A stretch of DNA of 64,000 bases from Nitrospirota bacterium. Lineage in GTDB: Bacteria; Nitrospirota; Nitrospiria; Nitrospirales; Nitrospiraceae. The stretch spans positions 372,001 to 436,000 of the forward strand of contig SCVN01000023.1 in the NCBI GenBank assembly GCA_004296885.1, given 5' to 3'. Under the pieces are notes generated by a model that saw only the letters and a program-made list of their open reading frames with translations, did no database searches and had not been told where the DNA came from. Below, one piece after another: positions 8,670-48,927 of the stretch; position 1 is the first letter of the stretch; every line of letters begins with the position of its first letter. The position numbers were made by a program, and so were the translations under genes.

Positions 8670-8762
8670 CGGATGCTCAAAAAATTCTCCAACGAGGCCG
8701 CAAGGAGTGAGAGGCCCGAGGTGGCACAGAGCAAGCTCCGCTTGAACCGCTTTCAGCATCCG
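8670..8762. repeat. Degenerate palindromic repeat abutting the purH stop codon
   Basis: This 93-bp element has imperfect inverted ends: CGGATGCTCAAAAA at the left (8670) and the complement of CGGATGCTGAAAGC at the right (ending 8762), 11 of 14 identical. It ends exactly at the base next to the purH stop (8763-8765). Inside, CAAGC-TCC-GCTTG followed by AACCGC (8732-8750) matches the first hairpin of the two-hairpin unit seen at 28.7 and 48.0 kb; the second hairpin is missing. It looks like a decayed member of a dispersed family that includes 28586-28820. Confidence 0.65.
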
Positions 8763-10316
8763 TCAATGGCGGAAGTGGCGCATACCGGTCAAAATCATCG
8801 CCATCTGATGCTCGTCCGCCGCTGCAATCACTTCCTGGTCGCGAATCGATCCGCCCGGTTGAATGACGGCCGTGATCCCCGCCTGCGCCGCCGCATCCAG
8901 CCCGTCCCGGAAGGGGAAAAAGGCATCCGACGCCATTACGCAGCCCTTCACAGGCAACACCGCCTTCATGCCGGCCAGCTTAACGGAATCCACCCGACTC
9001 ATCTGTCCGGCCCCGATCCCGACAGTCTGTCCCACCCGCGCATAGATGATGGCGTTGGACTTCACATGCTTGCAGACTTTCCAGGCAAAGGCGCAGGCTG
9101 CGTACTCCTCATCCGTGGGCTTCCGCTTGGTCGGCACCGTCAGCTTGCGCAGATCGCCCAGGGCGCCGAGGTCCCGGTCTTGCACGATCAGCCCGCCCAC
9201 TAACTTCTTCAAGTCCACCCCGTCTCGCGTCGACAACGTCAGCGGTCCGACATCCAGCAAACGCAAATCTTTCTTGCGCTTCAGTTCGGTCAGCGCATCC
9301 GCTTCATACCCGGGGGCCACAACCACTTCCACAAACGTGGAGGTAATTTCCTTGGCCGCCGCCAAATCCACCGGTCGATTGAAGGCAATCACGCCGCCGA
9401 AGGCCGAAACCGGATCGGTCTCTCTGGCCTTCACATAAGCTTCTACCGGACTGGCCCCCACTGCCACCCCGCAAGGATTGTTATGTTTCACAATCACAAC
9501 AGCGGTCGAATCGGTGAACTCTTTCACCAGCTCCAAGGCTGAATTCGCGTCCAAGAAGTTGTTGTAGGACATGGCCTTGCCATGCAGCGTCTTGGCACGA
9601 GACACAGACGGCTCGCGGGCGCCCAGCTCACGGTAGAAGGCCCCCTGCTGATGCGGATTCTCCCCGTAGCGAAGCGTTTCGACTTTCTCAAAAGCCAGCG
9701 ACAACATCGGCGGGAACTGAACGCTCCCTCCCTGTTGCTGCGCCAGATAGTTGGCAATCAGGCTGTCATAGCGGGCCGTATGCTGGAACACTTTTCCGGC
9801 CAACTCCAGACGGAGTTCCTTGGTCACCGTCCCGGCCTTGAGCGCCTCCAACACCCGGCCATAGTCGGCCGGGTCTACGACCACCGCCACATCTTCGTGA
9901 TTCTTGGCTGCGGACCGGAGCATCGACGGCCCACCGATGTCGATGTTCTCAATCGCGTGCTCAAAGGTGCAGTCGGGCTTGGCAATCGCGGCCTCAAAGG
10001 GATAGAGATTCACGACCACGACATCGATGGGACCGATCCCCTGCTGCTGCATCTGCGCGACGTGCTGCGGCAGCGAACGGCGCCCAAGAAGGCCGCCGTG
10101 AATCTTGGGATGCAAGGTCTTGACGCGGCCGTCCAGAATCTCCGGCGAACCGGTATAGGCGGCCACGTCCGTGACCGCCACGCCCGCGTCCCGCAGCGCC
10201 TTGGCCGTGCCGCCGGTGGACAGGATTTCCGCGCCCAGCGCGGCCAACCCCTGGGCCATCTCCACGACGCCGGTCTTGTCCGAGACACTGATCAACGCCC
10301 GCTTGATTCCGGCCAT
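8763..10316 (-). CDS. purH: Bifunctional AICAR transformylase / IMP cyclohydrolase
   Basis: A 517-residue enzyme for the last two steps of IMP synthesis. Residues 1-200 form the IMP cyclohydrolase (MGS-like) domain with RALISVSDKTGVVEMA, STGGTAKALRDAGV and GGRVKTLHPKIHGGLL (as DGRVKTLHPKIHGG). The remainder is the AICAR transformylase with YGENPHQQ, MSYNNFLDANSALEL, the KHNNPCGVA segment with the catalytic Lys-His, and SDAFFPFRDG. GGGAGAGGAC precedes the ATG. A candidate promoter lies at 10361-10390. purH and purD probably form one purine transcription unit with tsaC downstream. Confidence 0.97.
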   Translation of the reverse strand: MAGIKRALISVSDKTGVVEMAQGLAALGAEILSTGGTAKALRDAGVAVTDVAAYTGSPEILDGRVKTLHPKIHGGLLGRRSLPQHVAQMQQQGIGPIDVVVVNLYPFEAAIAKPDCTFEHAIENIDIGGPSMLRSAAKNHEDVAVVVDPADYGRVLEALKAGTVTKELRLELAGKVFQHTARYDSLIANYLAQQQGGSVQFPPMLSLAFEKVETLRYGENPHQQGAFYRELGAREPSVSRAKTLHGKAMSYNNFLDANSALELVKEFTDSTAVVIVKHNNPCGVAVGASPVEAYVKARETDPVSAFGGVIAFNRPVDLAAAKEITSTFVEVVVAPGYEADALTELKRKKDLRLLDVGPLTLSTRDGVDLKKLVGGLIVQDRDLGALGDLRKLTVPTKRKPTDEEYAACAFAWKVCKHVKSNAIIYARVGQTVGIGAGQMSRVDSVKLAGMKAVLPVKGCVMASDAFFPFRDGLDAAAQAGITAVIQPGGSIRDQEVIAAADEHQMAMILTGMRHFRH

Positions 10317-26690: not shown

Positions 26691-27701
26691 TTAGGGGACT
26701 ACCCACACGTTGACGAATACCGGCATGCTGTCGGCGCCTTTGACCGTATCCGGTCCTTTCATGTCCGTCACCCGCAGTTTGAATCGAAATAAGCGCTTGG
26801 CTGACACCTTGGGCGCGACAAAGGTCGCCTTGGAGGAGTCTGCGTCGAGCAACGACACCTTGTTGCCCCGTACTTGTGCCCATTCATATCGAAGGGGGTC
26901 TCCATCCGGGTCCCTGCTTTGAAGCGCGCTGAGCACCACTGTCGCTCCGGCTTGCACGGTTTGGTCGGGACCGGCTTGGGCGATCGGCACCCCGTTGGGC
27001 TCCGCCTCCGATTTCACCACCACATCCAACCGCCCTTCACGGCCACGATTCTTGACCGTCAGCGTGGCGGTCCCGTTTCCGATGACCCGCACGAAGCCTC
27101 CCGGATAGATCGCCAGCACCCCTTCGTTTGAGCTGTCATAACGGCTGCCCGCCGACGTCCCACCGATCCAGCGGGCGACACCATCGGCGAACTGGCCGAT
27201 GACCGGCACCTCGAGGATCTTGCCGATGGTATCCAACCGCCAGGGCTTTTCGACCTCGAACTCGATCCCCGTCAACGCCGCCGGGGGCTCAACCTGCAGG
27301 AGGATTTCATCGAACTCTTCCTGGCCGGCAAGGCGGCCCCTGGTCACCTCGCCGACAGCCAGCAGCCGCATGGCGCCGATCACCCCGTTCGGCACGGTCA
27401 GACGCCCCCCGAACGGCGGCGTCGCCGCGCTGATGGACTCCAGCGCCAATATCGCCTGCTGCGCCACAAGCGGCTCCTCCCCCAAGCGATACCAGTAGTA
27501 CAGGACCCGGCTGACGCCGATCTCCGTCCCAAGGTCCACCCGGACATCCAGCGATTGGCCGGCCACCAGCACCGCCCCCTCCGTGGGAGCCGTGACCCGA
27601 AACGCCCAGGCAGGAGTCGAAGCCCAGACTAAGCCGACAAGGGACATGAACGACAGAACGACAAGAAGGCAGATACGGTGACGGGACAGGAATCGGCGCA
27701 T
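26691..27701 (-). CDS. Secreted PKD/Ig-like domain protein
   Basis: A 336-residue exported protein with signal peptide RHRICLLVVLSFMSLVGLV up to about residue 35. Residues about 36-130 look like an immunoglobulin-like beta domain (VTAPTEGAVLVAGQSLDVRV). About 155-240 carry a second, Big-2-like segment (SSNEGVLAIYPGGFVRVIGN). About 245-336 form a PKD/REJ-type domain with AGPDQTVQAGATVVLSALQS and SRDPDGDPLRYEWAQV. These domains serve adhesion or surface scaffolding. The ATG at 27701 is preferred because AAGGA lies 6 nt upstream; in-frame ATGs at 27707 and 27716 are alternatives. No catalytic motif is seen. Confidence 0.78.
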   Translation of the reverse strand: MRRFLSRHRICLLVVLSFMSLVGLVWASTPAWAFRVTAPTEGAVLVAGQSLDVRVDLGTEIGVSRVLYYWYRLGEEPLVAQQAILALESISAATPPFGGRLTVPNGVIGAMRLLAVGEVTRGRLAGQEEFDEILLQVEPPAALTGIEFEVEKPWRLDTIGKILEVPVIGQFADGVARWIGGTSAGSRYDSSNEGVLAIYPGGFVRVIGNGTATLTVKNRGREGRLDVVVKSEAEPNGVPIAQAGPDQTVQAGATVVLSALQSRDPDGDPLRYEWAQVRGNKVSLLDADSSKATFVAPKVSAKRLFRFKLRVTDMKGPDTVKGADSMPVFVNVWVVP

Positions 27702-27824
27702 GCTCATTCCTTGCATACCGAGATGGTCGCGCGCCGCCAGTATAGCAAGATCCAAGACCCTGGTCACCGACGGCCGATTCCGCTACACTGGCGAACGCAG
27801 CGTCCTTTCCATGCCGGGGCAACG

Positions 27825-28490
27825 ATGAACGTGAAGGAACAGACGATTCTGAAAGTGCTGGTCGGCTCCCAGGCTCATGGGCTGGCCGGGCCGGACAGCG
27901 ACGCGGATTATCGGGGTGTCTTCGTCACTCCGACCGAGTGGCTGTTTCGTCTCGACTTCAAATACAAGGGCAGCCGCTGGACCGAAGGCCAGGAGGATGA
28001 AACCTATTGGGAAGTCGGCCGGTTCCTCTCGCTGGCGACCCATGGCCATCCGTTGGTGCTGGAGACCTTCCTGGCGCCGGTCGTGACGGCGGACTCATGG
28101 GGCCGGGAACTCCTGGCGCTGTTTCCCTCCGTCTGGACTCCCCTGACGGCCTACGAGGCCTTCGTCAGCTATGCGTTCAACCAGCGCAAAAAGTTTCTCG
28201 AGAAAAAAGATGCGCGGCCCGGCAAATACGCCCTGGCCCACTTACGGGTTCTGTTCAATCTCTGCGAACTGCTCGAAACCGGAACGTTCACCATCCGGAC
28301 TGCCGACACCAGCCTCGGCGAGACGCTCCGCCAGGTGAAAGCCGATGCGCTCACGGCCGGCCAGATCGTCGACGCAGGCGAACGGCTGTTCCAGGAGGCC
28401 ACTCAGCGCCTGGCCCGCTGTACCCATCAACCCAATCTCGAATCCGTCAATGCCTTCCTGGGCCGGTTGAGAAAAGCCTTCCTCGCCTAA
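27825..28490 (+). CDS. Nucleotidyltransferase of the DNA polymerase beta superfamily (RlaP-like)
   Basis: A 221-residue protein with the nucleotidyltransferase signature VLVGSQAHGLAGPDSDADYRG (GS...DxD, about 10-30), the catalytic acidic pair in DSDADYRG. The rest (YWEVGRFLSLATHGHPLVLE, RKKFLEKKDARPGKYALAHL) resembles the predicted nucleotidyltransferases grouped with RlaP (PF10127), some of which occur with RNA repair ligases. No ligase neighbour is present, so the function is open. It diverges from the PKD-protein gene (starts 123 bp apart) and is followed by the 28586-28820 palindromic element. Confidence 0.75.
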   Translation: MNVKEQTILKVLVGSQAHGLAGPDSDADYRGVFVTPTEWLFRLDFKYKGSRWTEGQEDETYWEVGRFLSLATHGHPLVLETFLAPVVTADSWGRELLALFPSVWTPLTAYEAFVSYAFNQRKKFLEKKDARPGKYALAHLRVLFNLCELLETGTFTIRTADTSLGETLRQVKADALTAGQIVDAGERLFQEATQRLARCTHQPNLESVNAFLGRLRKAFLA

Positions 28491-28585: not shown

Positions 28586-28820
28586 GCAGGATGGTCAAAA
28601 AGGCCACTTTCTCACCCGCCCGCCCCGCGTGCGTCGAACGCACGCTGTTCCCGTGGCTTGGCCGCAGCAAGCGAGTGGCGAGGAGGTACATACCAAGCTT
28701 TGCTTGAACCGCTCGCTTCGATCAAATGCGAGCGGAGAAGTACTTTGCCTCTTGTCTTCCCGTACGTGGAGCCTCTGAGCGATGTGAGAACAACGCTGGC
28801 GGACTTTTTCAACATCCTGC
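28586..28820. repeat. 235-bp palindromic element with 20-bp inverted ends
   Basis: The left end GCAGGATGGTCAAAAAGGCC (28586-28605) and the complement of the right end (28801-28820) are 17/20 identical. The element contains internal complementary segments, codes for nothing convincing, and carries a nested copy of the two-hairpin unit. Its last base is also the third base of the esterase stop codon (28820-28822), so it sits exactly at a gene end, like the shorter relative at 8670-8762. A further fragment resembling the end (GCAGGCATTGAAAAAC, 28514-28529) suggests an older or larger insertion. It has the form of a MITE or REP/BIME-like unit; no transposase is linked. It occupies most of the gap 28491-28819. 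Confidence 0.75.
28693..28751. repeat. Two-hairpin unit nested in the palindromic element
   Basis: First stem CAAGC (28694-28698), loop TTT, GCTTG (28702-28706); linker AA; second stem CCGCTCGC (28709-28716), 11-nt loop TTCGATCAAAT, GCGAGCGG (28728-28735), perfect 8 bp; then GAGAAG and a T-rich tail ending CCTC. The first 46 bp are identical at 43 positions to the copy at 48064-48109. Confidence 0.75.
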
Positions 28821-37955: not shown

Positions 37956-38111
37956 AATCGACCTCCGCTTGGCTGGCGGCAATCCCAGCGCAATACAATG
38001 GACATGAAAGAAAGATGGAAGGACGTCAGCCAAGAAACACGTGACGTGCTTCTTTATAGGCATCAATGACGCTAAGGCAATAATAAACCGATGGGTCATG
38101 CAAGCGAGGTA

Positions 38112-38186
<75 letters not shown>

Positions 38187-47319: not shown

Positions 47320-47955
47320 TTAGGGCAAGAACATGCGCAACGGCACGAACCCTTCCGCGTTCCTCACCCGTCCCTGGATGCCGCGAAAATGCGCGGCCGA
47401 CTTCGTCACTTCAACGATGCTCAGCCCTTCTACGTTAGTTTTATTGACCTGGGACGCATGGGCTTGCAGCGCCTTGATCTTTTCGTCCAGGACCGCCCCG
47501 ATGTCCACAAAGACCGTCGGGGAGAAATGCTGCGTCGTCGGCCCTTCGTAGAAAAGCACGTTTTTGGTATAGCGTGACGCCGAGACGGTGCTCATCGCCA
47601 GATGGCGGTGATCCTGGTGCGTATCATCGGGGAAATGCACGAAAATCACATGGGGAGCGACCTCCTGCACCACCCGTTCGATCTTCTGCACCAACCCTCG
47701 ATCGTTGGGAATGGCGGTATCAGGATAGCCGCCCCAATAGACCTTGTCGACTCCCAGAATCTTTGCCGCATCGCCTTGCTCGGCCGTGCGGACCCGCGCA
47801 TCGCCTCCCAACTCGCCTTCGGTCATGACCATCAAGAAGACCCCATGGCCTTGCTTCGAGTACCGCAGGAGAGCTCCCCCGCACCCGGCCTCGATATCGT
47901 CGGGATGCGCACCCAGTGCCAAAATACGAATCCGGTTCGAGTCCTCCGAAGCCAT
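47320..47955 (-). CDS. PIG-L family deacetylase (LmbE-like)
   Basis: A 211-residue zinc-dependent N-deacetylase. The metal motif AHPDDIEAGCGG sits near the start, and FPDDTHQDHRHLA carries the third zinc histidine. The family deacetylates GlcNAc-type substrates (GlcNAc-PI, mycothiol precursors, antibiotics, sugar nucleotides); here the neighbours suggest a nucleotide or lipid sugar. The ATG at 47955 is chosen because GGAGG lies 5 nt upstream, although an in-frame ATG at 47967 inside the first repeat unit is possible. The two-hairpin repeats lie directly upstream, in the likely 5' leader. Confidence 0.9.
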   Translation of the reverse strand: MASEDSNRIRILALGAHPDDIEAGCGGALLRYSKQGHGVFLMVMTEGELGGDARVRTAEQGDAAKILGVDKVYWGGYPDTAIPNDRGLVQKIERVVQEVAPHVIFVHFPDDTHQDHRHLAMSTVSASRYTKNVLFYEGPTTQHFSPTVFVDIGAVLDEKIKALQAHASQVNKTNVEGLSIVEVTKSAAHFRGIQGRVRNAEGFVPLRMFLP

Positions 47956-47965
47956 CGCCACCTCC

Positions 47966-48167
47966 ATACCAACCTTCGGTTGAACCCGGCACTTCGATCA
48001 AGTGTGCCGGGAGAAGTTTTTTACCTCCAGTGAAATATCAACCAACCTTCGGTTGAACCGCCATACCAAGCTTCGCTTGAACCGCTCGCTTCGATCAGAT
48101 GTGAGCGGATAGTTTTTGCTACCGGTATTCTTTCCGATCATTTGCGGGCGGAGAAGGTTTTTGCCTC
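47966..48167. repeat. Array of structured two-hairpin repeat units upstream of the PIG-L gene
   Basis: It fills most of the 273-bp gap 47956-48228. Unit 1 (47969-48027): CAACC-TTC-GGTTG, then CCCGGCAC (47985-47992), 11-nt loop TTCGATCAAGT, GTGCCGGG (48004-48011), then GAGAAG-T6-ACCTC. Unit 2 keeps only the first hairpin (48043-48055). Unit 3 (48066-48123): CAAGC-TTC-GCTTG, then CCGCTCGC (48082-48089), loop TTCGATCAGAT, GTGAGCGG (48101-48108). Unit 4 (48131-48167) keeps the loop, right arm GCGGGCGG and the tail. Stems differ but pairing is preserved. Another copy is at 28693-28751. The remainder (48168-48228) shows nothing recognisable. Confidence 0.75.
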
Positions 48168-48228: not shown

Positions 48229-48927
48229 TCACGCCTCACAGGATTGTTGCCGCGCGCGGCGCAGGAGCCGGAGCGCCTCGCCGCCGCAGGCAAAGAGCAG
48301 GTCAATGGCGGCCATGCCGGGCATGAATGGTTCATAACATTGAGCATAGACCGGATGGTGAAAGTCCTGCACCTCCAAGCGTATCCCCGAGGCTTCGAAC
48401 CTCGGCCTATCCATGTATCCGGCCGCGCCAGCCCCGGCCAGATAGCTGGTGCCGCCCACTGTCCGGCAGATATCGATCAGCCGATCCGTCGGCTCATCCC
48501 GGAGCGTCATCTCCGACGCCATGCGCAAAGGCGTCGTGATGCCGTAGGCGTCCAGCAGCCACGCGAGCACCGCCACATTGAGATCCGACAAGCGTTCCCA
48601 GGGCCGCCGGCAAATCGCGCGCAACCCCTCCAGGAACGGCTCACGGTACGGCGCACGAGCATAGTGCATCTCGATCGTCCGCACGTGCTTGGCGCCCCAT
48701 GCCTCGCTCGGATTGATGCGGACTTCATTGATCGGCTGCCCGAACCGATGGAGCACGGGCACGGTCACCCACTGGCAGCCCTGCGCCGTCCGGATGCGAT
48801 TGCGGTTTTGCCATTCGTTCTTCTTGAACTGAACGGTGTCCAGTATCACAAAGACATCGGCCCGATCAATCTTATCCAGATAGCCCAACCAGGGCAGATA
48901 TTGAGGTTGATGGATCGCGACCCGCAT
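48229..48927 (-). CDS. WbqC family protein
   Basis: A 232-residue member of the WbqC family found in O-antigen and polysaccharide loci. It starts RVAIHQPQYLPWLGYLDKID, the hallmark, followed by DVFVILDTVQFKKNEWQNRNRI. Function is not established; the family is suggested to act in glycan assembly. Its ATG shares a base with the stop of the PHP gene (TAATG), so it is coupled to it. The stop precedes the repeat array. Confidence 0.92.
   Translation of the reverse strand: MRVAIHQPQYLPWLGYLDKIDRADVFVILDTVQFKKNEWQNRNRIRTAQGCQWVTVPVLHRFGQPINEVRINPSEAWGAKHVRTIEMHYARAPYREPFLEGLRAICRRPWERLSDLNVAVLAWLLDAYGITTPLRMASEMTLRDEPTDRLIDICRTVGGTSYLAGAGAAGYMDRPRFEASGIRLEVQDFHHPVYAQCYEPFMPGMAAIDLLFACGGEALRLLRRARQQSCEA

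Follow-up and report, generated by a model that had tools for sequence, protein, structure and literature searches.

What are the short two-hairpin repeats that stand between two genes of a Nitrospira genome, and how did they come to stand there? Bacterial intergenic space is full of small palindromic repeats, whose choice of site is mostly obscure. In the window, i.e., the whole 64,000-nucleotide stretch of DNA analyzed here, repeat units on the plus strand sit between the minus-strand genes for WbqC (48229-48927) and PIG-L (ORF 47320-47967, minus strand; PF02585 match, E = 1.5e-26), followed by genes for DegT and Glycos_transf_4 (WecA-like). The PIG-L translation start is likely the ATG at 47955-47953. 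An earlier note on this DNA had correctly placed units by the PIG-L/DegT/WecA genes and had described three units with one shared architecture, a description that is borne out by folding: as single-stranded DNA, units 1 to 3 yield precisely the two described hairpins (z of −3.4 to −4.0). Their location was also right, while the starts had been set one base too early (Table 1). The adjacent and partial copies that had been noticed are present as well and can be described more precisely as unit 2 nested inside an older unit.

Table 1. Coordinates of repeat units and associated features in the window
Feature	Coordinates	Strand	Details and basis
Unit 1, type A core	47966-48031	+	Sequence, fold, covariance-model match E = 9.8e-20 (419961-420043 of contig)
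Unit 1, ATACC	47966-47970	+	
Unit 1, hairpin 1	47970-47982	+	CAACC-TTC-GGTTG
Unit 1, hairpin 2	47985-48011	+	CCCGGCAC-TTCGATCAAGT-GTGCCGGG
Unit 1, tail		+	AGAAGTTTTTTACCTCCAGT
Unit 1 target	47961-47965	-	Plus-strand CCTCC, complement of the PIG-L Shine-Dalgarno sequence GGAGG; directly abuts unit 1
Unit 2, type A, nested in older unit	48063-48128	+	Sequence, fold, covariance-model match E = 1.2e-19
Unit 2, hairpin 1	48067-48079	+	
Unit 2, hairpin 2	48082-48108	+	
Older unit, left half	48043-48061	+	Hairpin 1 CAACC-TTC-GGTTG, then AACCGC, broken by unit 2; sequence
Older unit, right half	48134-48167	+	CCGATCATTTGCGGGCGGAGAAGGTTTTTGCCTC; sequence; partial nhmmer match at 48134
Unit 3, type A, MITE passenger	28690-28755	+	Sequence, covariance-model match E = 1.5e-23
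Unit 3, hairpin 1	28694-28706	+	
Unit 3, hairpin 2	28709-28735	+	
MITE carrying unit 3 in apical loop	28587-28819		TIRs CAGGATGGTCAAAAAGGCC (28587-28605) and GGACTTTTTCAACATCCTG (28801-28819)
Degenerate type-B unit	38030-38112	-	Starts at CCA (38114-38112) of tRNA-Gly; type-B model match E = 9.8e-7 (410018-410116 of contig)
tRNA-Gly gene	38115-38186	-	tRNA call
Decayed MITE	8671-8765		GGATGCTCAAAAA ... TTTCAGCATCCG with hairpin 1 remnant GCAAGCTCCGCTTGAACCGCT; sequence; weak type-A model match E = 0.34

Anatomy of the units and compensation in their stems

The units are approximately 65-80 bases long and consist of two hairpins. Type A reads 5'-ATACC, a 5-bp stem with a 3-nt loop, AA, an 8-bp stem with the 11-nt loop TTCGATCANRT, followed by ATAGTTACTTTGCCTCCAGT. 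Type B shares ATACC and hairpin 1 with type A, but its second hairpin has a loop of 24-29 nt containing ..TATCGTAATTGAT and its tail is GAGAAACACCTCAAGTG; it is found between and beside type-A units. A reading of the TTCGATC loop as a T-loop, i.e., as a tRNA mimic, was considered and left as a coincidence. The right end is blurred: conservation reaches as far as CCAGT and, in half of the copies, as far as AGGCTTAGATTCTTC. The consensus tail is ATAGTTACTTTGCC, and a T-run is not conserved but occurs in some copies; the GAGAAG and T-rich tail that had been taken as a shared feature differs from the family consensus ATAGTTACTTTGCCTCCAGT.

The two arms of the stems change together, as the earlier note had claimed. 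In an alignment made from the sequences only, 8 of the 13 pairs are altered on both sides and 96.7% of the cells are paired, compared with 0 of 500 shuffles that match the observed pairing and only 24-36% pairing for slid partners. Among 1416 stem pairs, 1383 (97.7%) are Watson-Crick, 10 are G.T, 11 are A.C, and 12 are other; with just 2.3% of pairs departing from Watson-Crick, half-changed intermediates are scarce. For the type-B training set, in which a perfect hairpin 2 was the selection rule for 11 of 14 copies, the variation counts and the pairing percentage does not. Stems differ between copies as whole blocks (CCGCTCGC, CCGCCGCG, and CCGGCCCC), and the inner stem pairs turn over while the loop, like the outer C-C/G-G pairs, is constant, with the qualification that most loci were retrieved with type-A models or patterns, so that the loop conservation is partly ascertained.

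Copy number and taxonomic range

Using a covariance model trained on 14 type-A copies and a cut-off of E ≤ 1e-3, we identified 58 type-A copies in the 3.26-Mb Nitrospira genome. A type-B model added 19 units, for a total of 77. These occupy 52 sites, including 16 with arrays of 2-4 units each. The genome contains 66 occurrences of the loop pattern TTCGATCANRT and 0 of the reversed control pattern, although about half of the 66 are plain coding matches. Copies are present in 24 of 41 relatives and, across the phylum, in 61 of 296 genomes, of which 59 belong to the same family, 1 to the same order, and 1 to another family; the unit family is near-confined to Nitrospiraceae. The named records with matches in a pattern scan are Nitrospira and Nitrospiraceae MAGs; the ten matches outside Nitrospirota are at chance level (an estimated ~7 expected), none being a full-length profile match, and 0 viral contigs have units. 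In an Rfam search of the window, the units matched no family, and the sole match above the gathering score was a tRNA.

Units abut tRNA CCA ends and Shine-Dalgarno sequences

For same-strand tRNA-adjacent copies in which the left end is present, the offset is −1 in 18 of 18, i.e., the tRNA ..CCA runs into TACC; some of these 18 loci overlap, making the independent sites fewer. Thirteen of 43 tRNA genes clearly bear a unit at the CCA junction, compared with ~0.0005 expected by chance, and another three have a related hairpin there. At the junction occupied by the degenerate type-B unit beside the tRNA-Gly gene of the window, the orthologue in the related genome G001 has a type-A unit. At a tRNA-Ser gene that begins with GGAGG, units lie antisense at the 5' end.

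Other small repeats occur at tRNA ends. A third hairpin type (CCCGAACTTGTTTGGCGGGAG...GATCCGC) likewise begins exactly after the CCA ends of tRNA-Ser and tRNA-Val (L243, L067, and L068), and a further repeat (..GGCGCGCCAG..TACCAAC..GGTGTCGC) lies 3' of tRNA-Ser genes. Several small repeats thus seem to share tRNA ends as a hotspot. Separately, a comparison of two tRNA-Asp loci (L210 and L188) revealed that G001 has a 171-bp insertion and a duplicated 25-bp tRNA 3' end, resembling the scar of an integrated element.

The second class of site is the Shine-Dalgarno sequence. CCTCC directly precedes 25 of 84 solo copies compared to a background of 0.18%, and the junction CCTCC/ATACC on the unit strand corresponds to GGAGG-spacer-ATG on the gene strand, as in the window copy at 47966. 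The sorting into classes such as solo, made over 178 non-redundant copies, follows simple text rules by which some copies are misclassed; for example, a few Shine-Dalgarno copies are listed under "other" or "array" and one tRNA-Thr copy under Shine-Dalgarno. Relative to transcription, the units are in sense orientation after tRNAs and antisense before protein genes.

Filled and empty sites, arrays, and nesting

The unit at 47966 is absent from the G001 counterpart of the locus. One conserved gene (L043) has a unit directly after the CCTCC of its Shine-Dalgarno site in 4 genomes, all of the same genus, while 26 orthologues are empty; in nearly all of these, an unrelated spacer comes after a retained CCTCC or close variant of it. 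Sister lineages have two different hairpin pairs at this site, reflecting either whole-hairpin turnover or two separate insertions.

The older unit that is still intact in L104 has, in L058, a 94-nt type-B unit placed precisely between its ATACC and CCTCC. Similarly, in L067, a type-B unit precedes a type-A unit at the antisense CCTCC of the tRNA-Ser 5' end, while L083 and L198 (G001) have type A alone. Arrays therefore expand as further units insert at a target already in use. Units also lie inside the second hairpin of another unit at three loci, i.e., L050 (in the window), L094, and L138; the nesting junction ttgaaccgc/CATACC of the latter two is the same as that of the older unit in the window. 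A comparison of L053 with L245 shows a gene segment bordered by units in the former but missing between the corresponding G001 units, a difference that possibly reflects deletion by recombination between units.

A MITE family carries the unit

Unit 3 resides in a MITE whose terminal inverted repeat (TIR) CAGGATGNTSAAAAAGNCC has 68 matches in the genome compared to 0 for a control. An alignment of empty and filled elements revealed that the MITE also exists unit-free as a 119-bp element with the apical loop GTAC..CGTAC. Based on its occurrence with and without the unit, the unit entered the MITE loop and the compound then multiplied, the window copy at 28690 being one such. Of the 178 non-redundant copies, 82 are MITE-borne and 84 solo. 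A GCTA direct repeat is present at one insertion of the MITE compound, and a one-sided MITE lies at L194:14341. TIRs are present in the carrier at 28587-28819, and the TIRs and target duplications that define MITEs are not found in solo units. In G015, the unit rides in a different repeat (..GCGAGCACGCCCGC/CATACC). We also note that the 119-bp MITE is a Nitrospira family in its own right, with further loci (L316-L327), and that a gene of the RlaP family (RNA repair pathway DNA polymerase beta) lies beside the MITE at 27678-28490 of the window.

Search for a mobilizing enzyme or parent element

The earlier note had proposed looking for a TnpA-REP (Y1 transposase) gene. None (PF01797) was detected in the host genome (G000), in G001, or in G007, each of which has ~43-65 copies, and some genomes with Y1 genes hold zero copies. 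An autonomous parent element was sought in the genome by matches to the left half of the unit, and all matches fell in or at known units or a decayed MITE, giving no sign of a larger autonomous element with such ends.

Discussion

The units have one orientation, with ATACC directly after 5'-CC, which is provided by the tRNA CCA end, by the Shine-Dalgarno complement, or by the CCGC of another unit. We suggest that, with good probability, they form a Nitrospiraceae family of very small, non-autonomous mobile elements inserted by an enzyme acting in trans, a model built from sequence comparisons. This putative enzyme would recognize the hairpins as DNA and join the 5' end of the unit to its CC target while generating no long target duplication, for which a single-strand (HUH-like) reaction would be the nearest model. 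Because no long duplication would be made, the tRNA CCA or Shine-Dalgarno sequence would stay intact and the insertion would be tolerated. CCTCC, the Shine-Dalgarno complement, is also the 16S rRNA 3' motif. It is conceivable, if rather improbable, that the enzyme targets, as DNA, conserved ends belonging to the translation apparatus (tRNA CCA and CCTCC), perhaps guided by tRNA or 16S rRNA 3' ends, with both signals kept intact.

The conserved loop, the compensated stems, and the exact position beside tRNA ends and Shine-Dalgarno sequences could also be expected if the hairpins of 5' leaders and tRNA 3' trailers worked as a terminator or other functional RNA element, acting in processing, termination, or translation. 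We consider this unlikely, as opposite strands of the unit are transcribed in the tRNA and protein-gene settings, most tRNA genes and the 26 orthologues of one gene lack the unit, and Rfam provides no match. Moreover, selection at the RNA level on one strand should favor G.U over A.C, and neither strand has such an excess (10 G.T versus 11 A.C, which are small numbers), which counts against RNA. The barrier to transcription proposed in the earlier note finds no backing either, in that the tail is not a T-run in the consensus and no terminator was called at units on the plus strand. Altogether, the non-conserved T-run, the missing G.U excess, and the differing orientation to transcription argue for a DNA-level element rather than a terminator or RNA element. 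The near-perfect Watson-Crick arms and the lack of a G.U excess fit a need for the hairpin at the level of DNA, and stem pairing is likely under selection, as the earlier note had proposed; however, they also fit replication template switching, in which one arm is copied from the other and corrects it. The whole-block variation of stems and the scarcity of half-changed intermediates make this origin of the paired changes a possibility of some weight, if the less likely one. It concerns the stems only and is compatible with mobility: it accounts for the symmetry of arms but not for dispersal, and a constant loop and constant outer pairs with inner turnover would also be expected from an enzyme that reads structure. 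Finally, spread of the unit only as the interior of the AGGATGTTGAAAAAG MITE could explain the MITE-borne copies but is hardly tenable, being refuted by the 84 solo copies, which lack TIRs and have other exact junctions; in addition, the MITE is known without the unit, and the unit of G015 has a different repeat context.

The idea of a REP-like mobile hairpin thus survives in the broad sense, given the dispersed copies, the filled and empty orthologous sites, and the nesting, but membership in REP/RAYT does not. Like REP/RAYT systems (PMC2817692, PMC6006769), the units are short intergenic hairpin repeats with tens to hundreds of copies per genome, arrays, lineage specificity, and compensatory stems, and they are short, palindromic, mostly extragenic, and present in many copies (58 + 19 units). 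REP/RAYT elements are defined by a GT[AG]G head tetranucleotide at the hairpin foot (PMC6006769), which is absent at both hairpins on both strands of the unit consensus; their other hallmark, a Y1 (PF01797) transposase gene between inverted repeats, is missing from the three copy-rich genomes. The units also differ in their fixed two-hairpin plan and their exact abutment to tRNA CCA and the Shine-Dalgarno complement. Mobilization as classical REP elements by a RAYT or IS200-IS605 Y1 transposase would agree with the abundance of short intergenic palindromes in arrays and with insertion beside a short motif without evident target duplication; it is quite improbable, and already disfavored, given the missing head, the copy-rich genomes without PF01797, and the copy-free genomes with Y1.

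Among other known systems, MITEs are likewise small and non-autonomous, and one MITE family carries the unit, whereas solo units lack terminal inverted repeats and evident target duplication. Integron attC arrays consist of head-to-tail hairpin units to which new ones are added at one end. The Nitrospira arrays resemble them in both respects but have no conserved GTTRRRY/RYYYAAC boxes in the unit consensus and no cassettes, and the units are dispersed over ~50 sites. CGTC-tagged REPs are also palindromic repeats without associated transposase genes (PMC3733652); however, the unit consensus lacks the CGTC tag, and the paper describing them does not mention Nitrospira and reports no target preference (PMC3733652). 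Palindromes derived from IS200/IS605, in which single-stranded DNA inserts by a short target (PMC6006769), share the single orientation, the short strand-specific motif, and the hairpins. By contrast, our units use several related CC motifs instead of a single tetranucleotide, no TnpA was found for them, and they are single small units rather than two ends; their left junction is exact at ..CC/AT, and the right end is not sharply fixed. Thus, the family is akin in its working to REP or IS200/IS605 palindromes, yet it lacks the head motif and the Y1 gene of REPs. A search of the open literature, with subscription papers outside its scope, found no description of the unit family; Nitrospira moscoviensis features solely as one row of a generic table of REP counts (PMC12306157).

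The surprising part is the exact siting at tRNA CCA and Shine-Dalgarno sequences: throughout a bacterial family, two gene-boundary signals are chosen with unusual exactness, accompanied by empty sites, nesting, and a MITE carrier. If true, targeting of translation ends would be a safe-site strategy undescribed before for such small elements. The units alter the trailers of tRNAs as well as many gene leaders, and they offer a clean system for finding an unrecognized mobilizing enzyme in Nitrospira, the main nitrite oxidizers.
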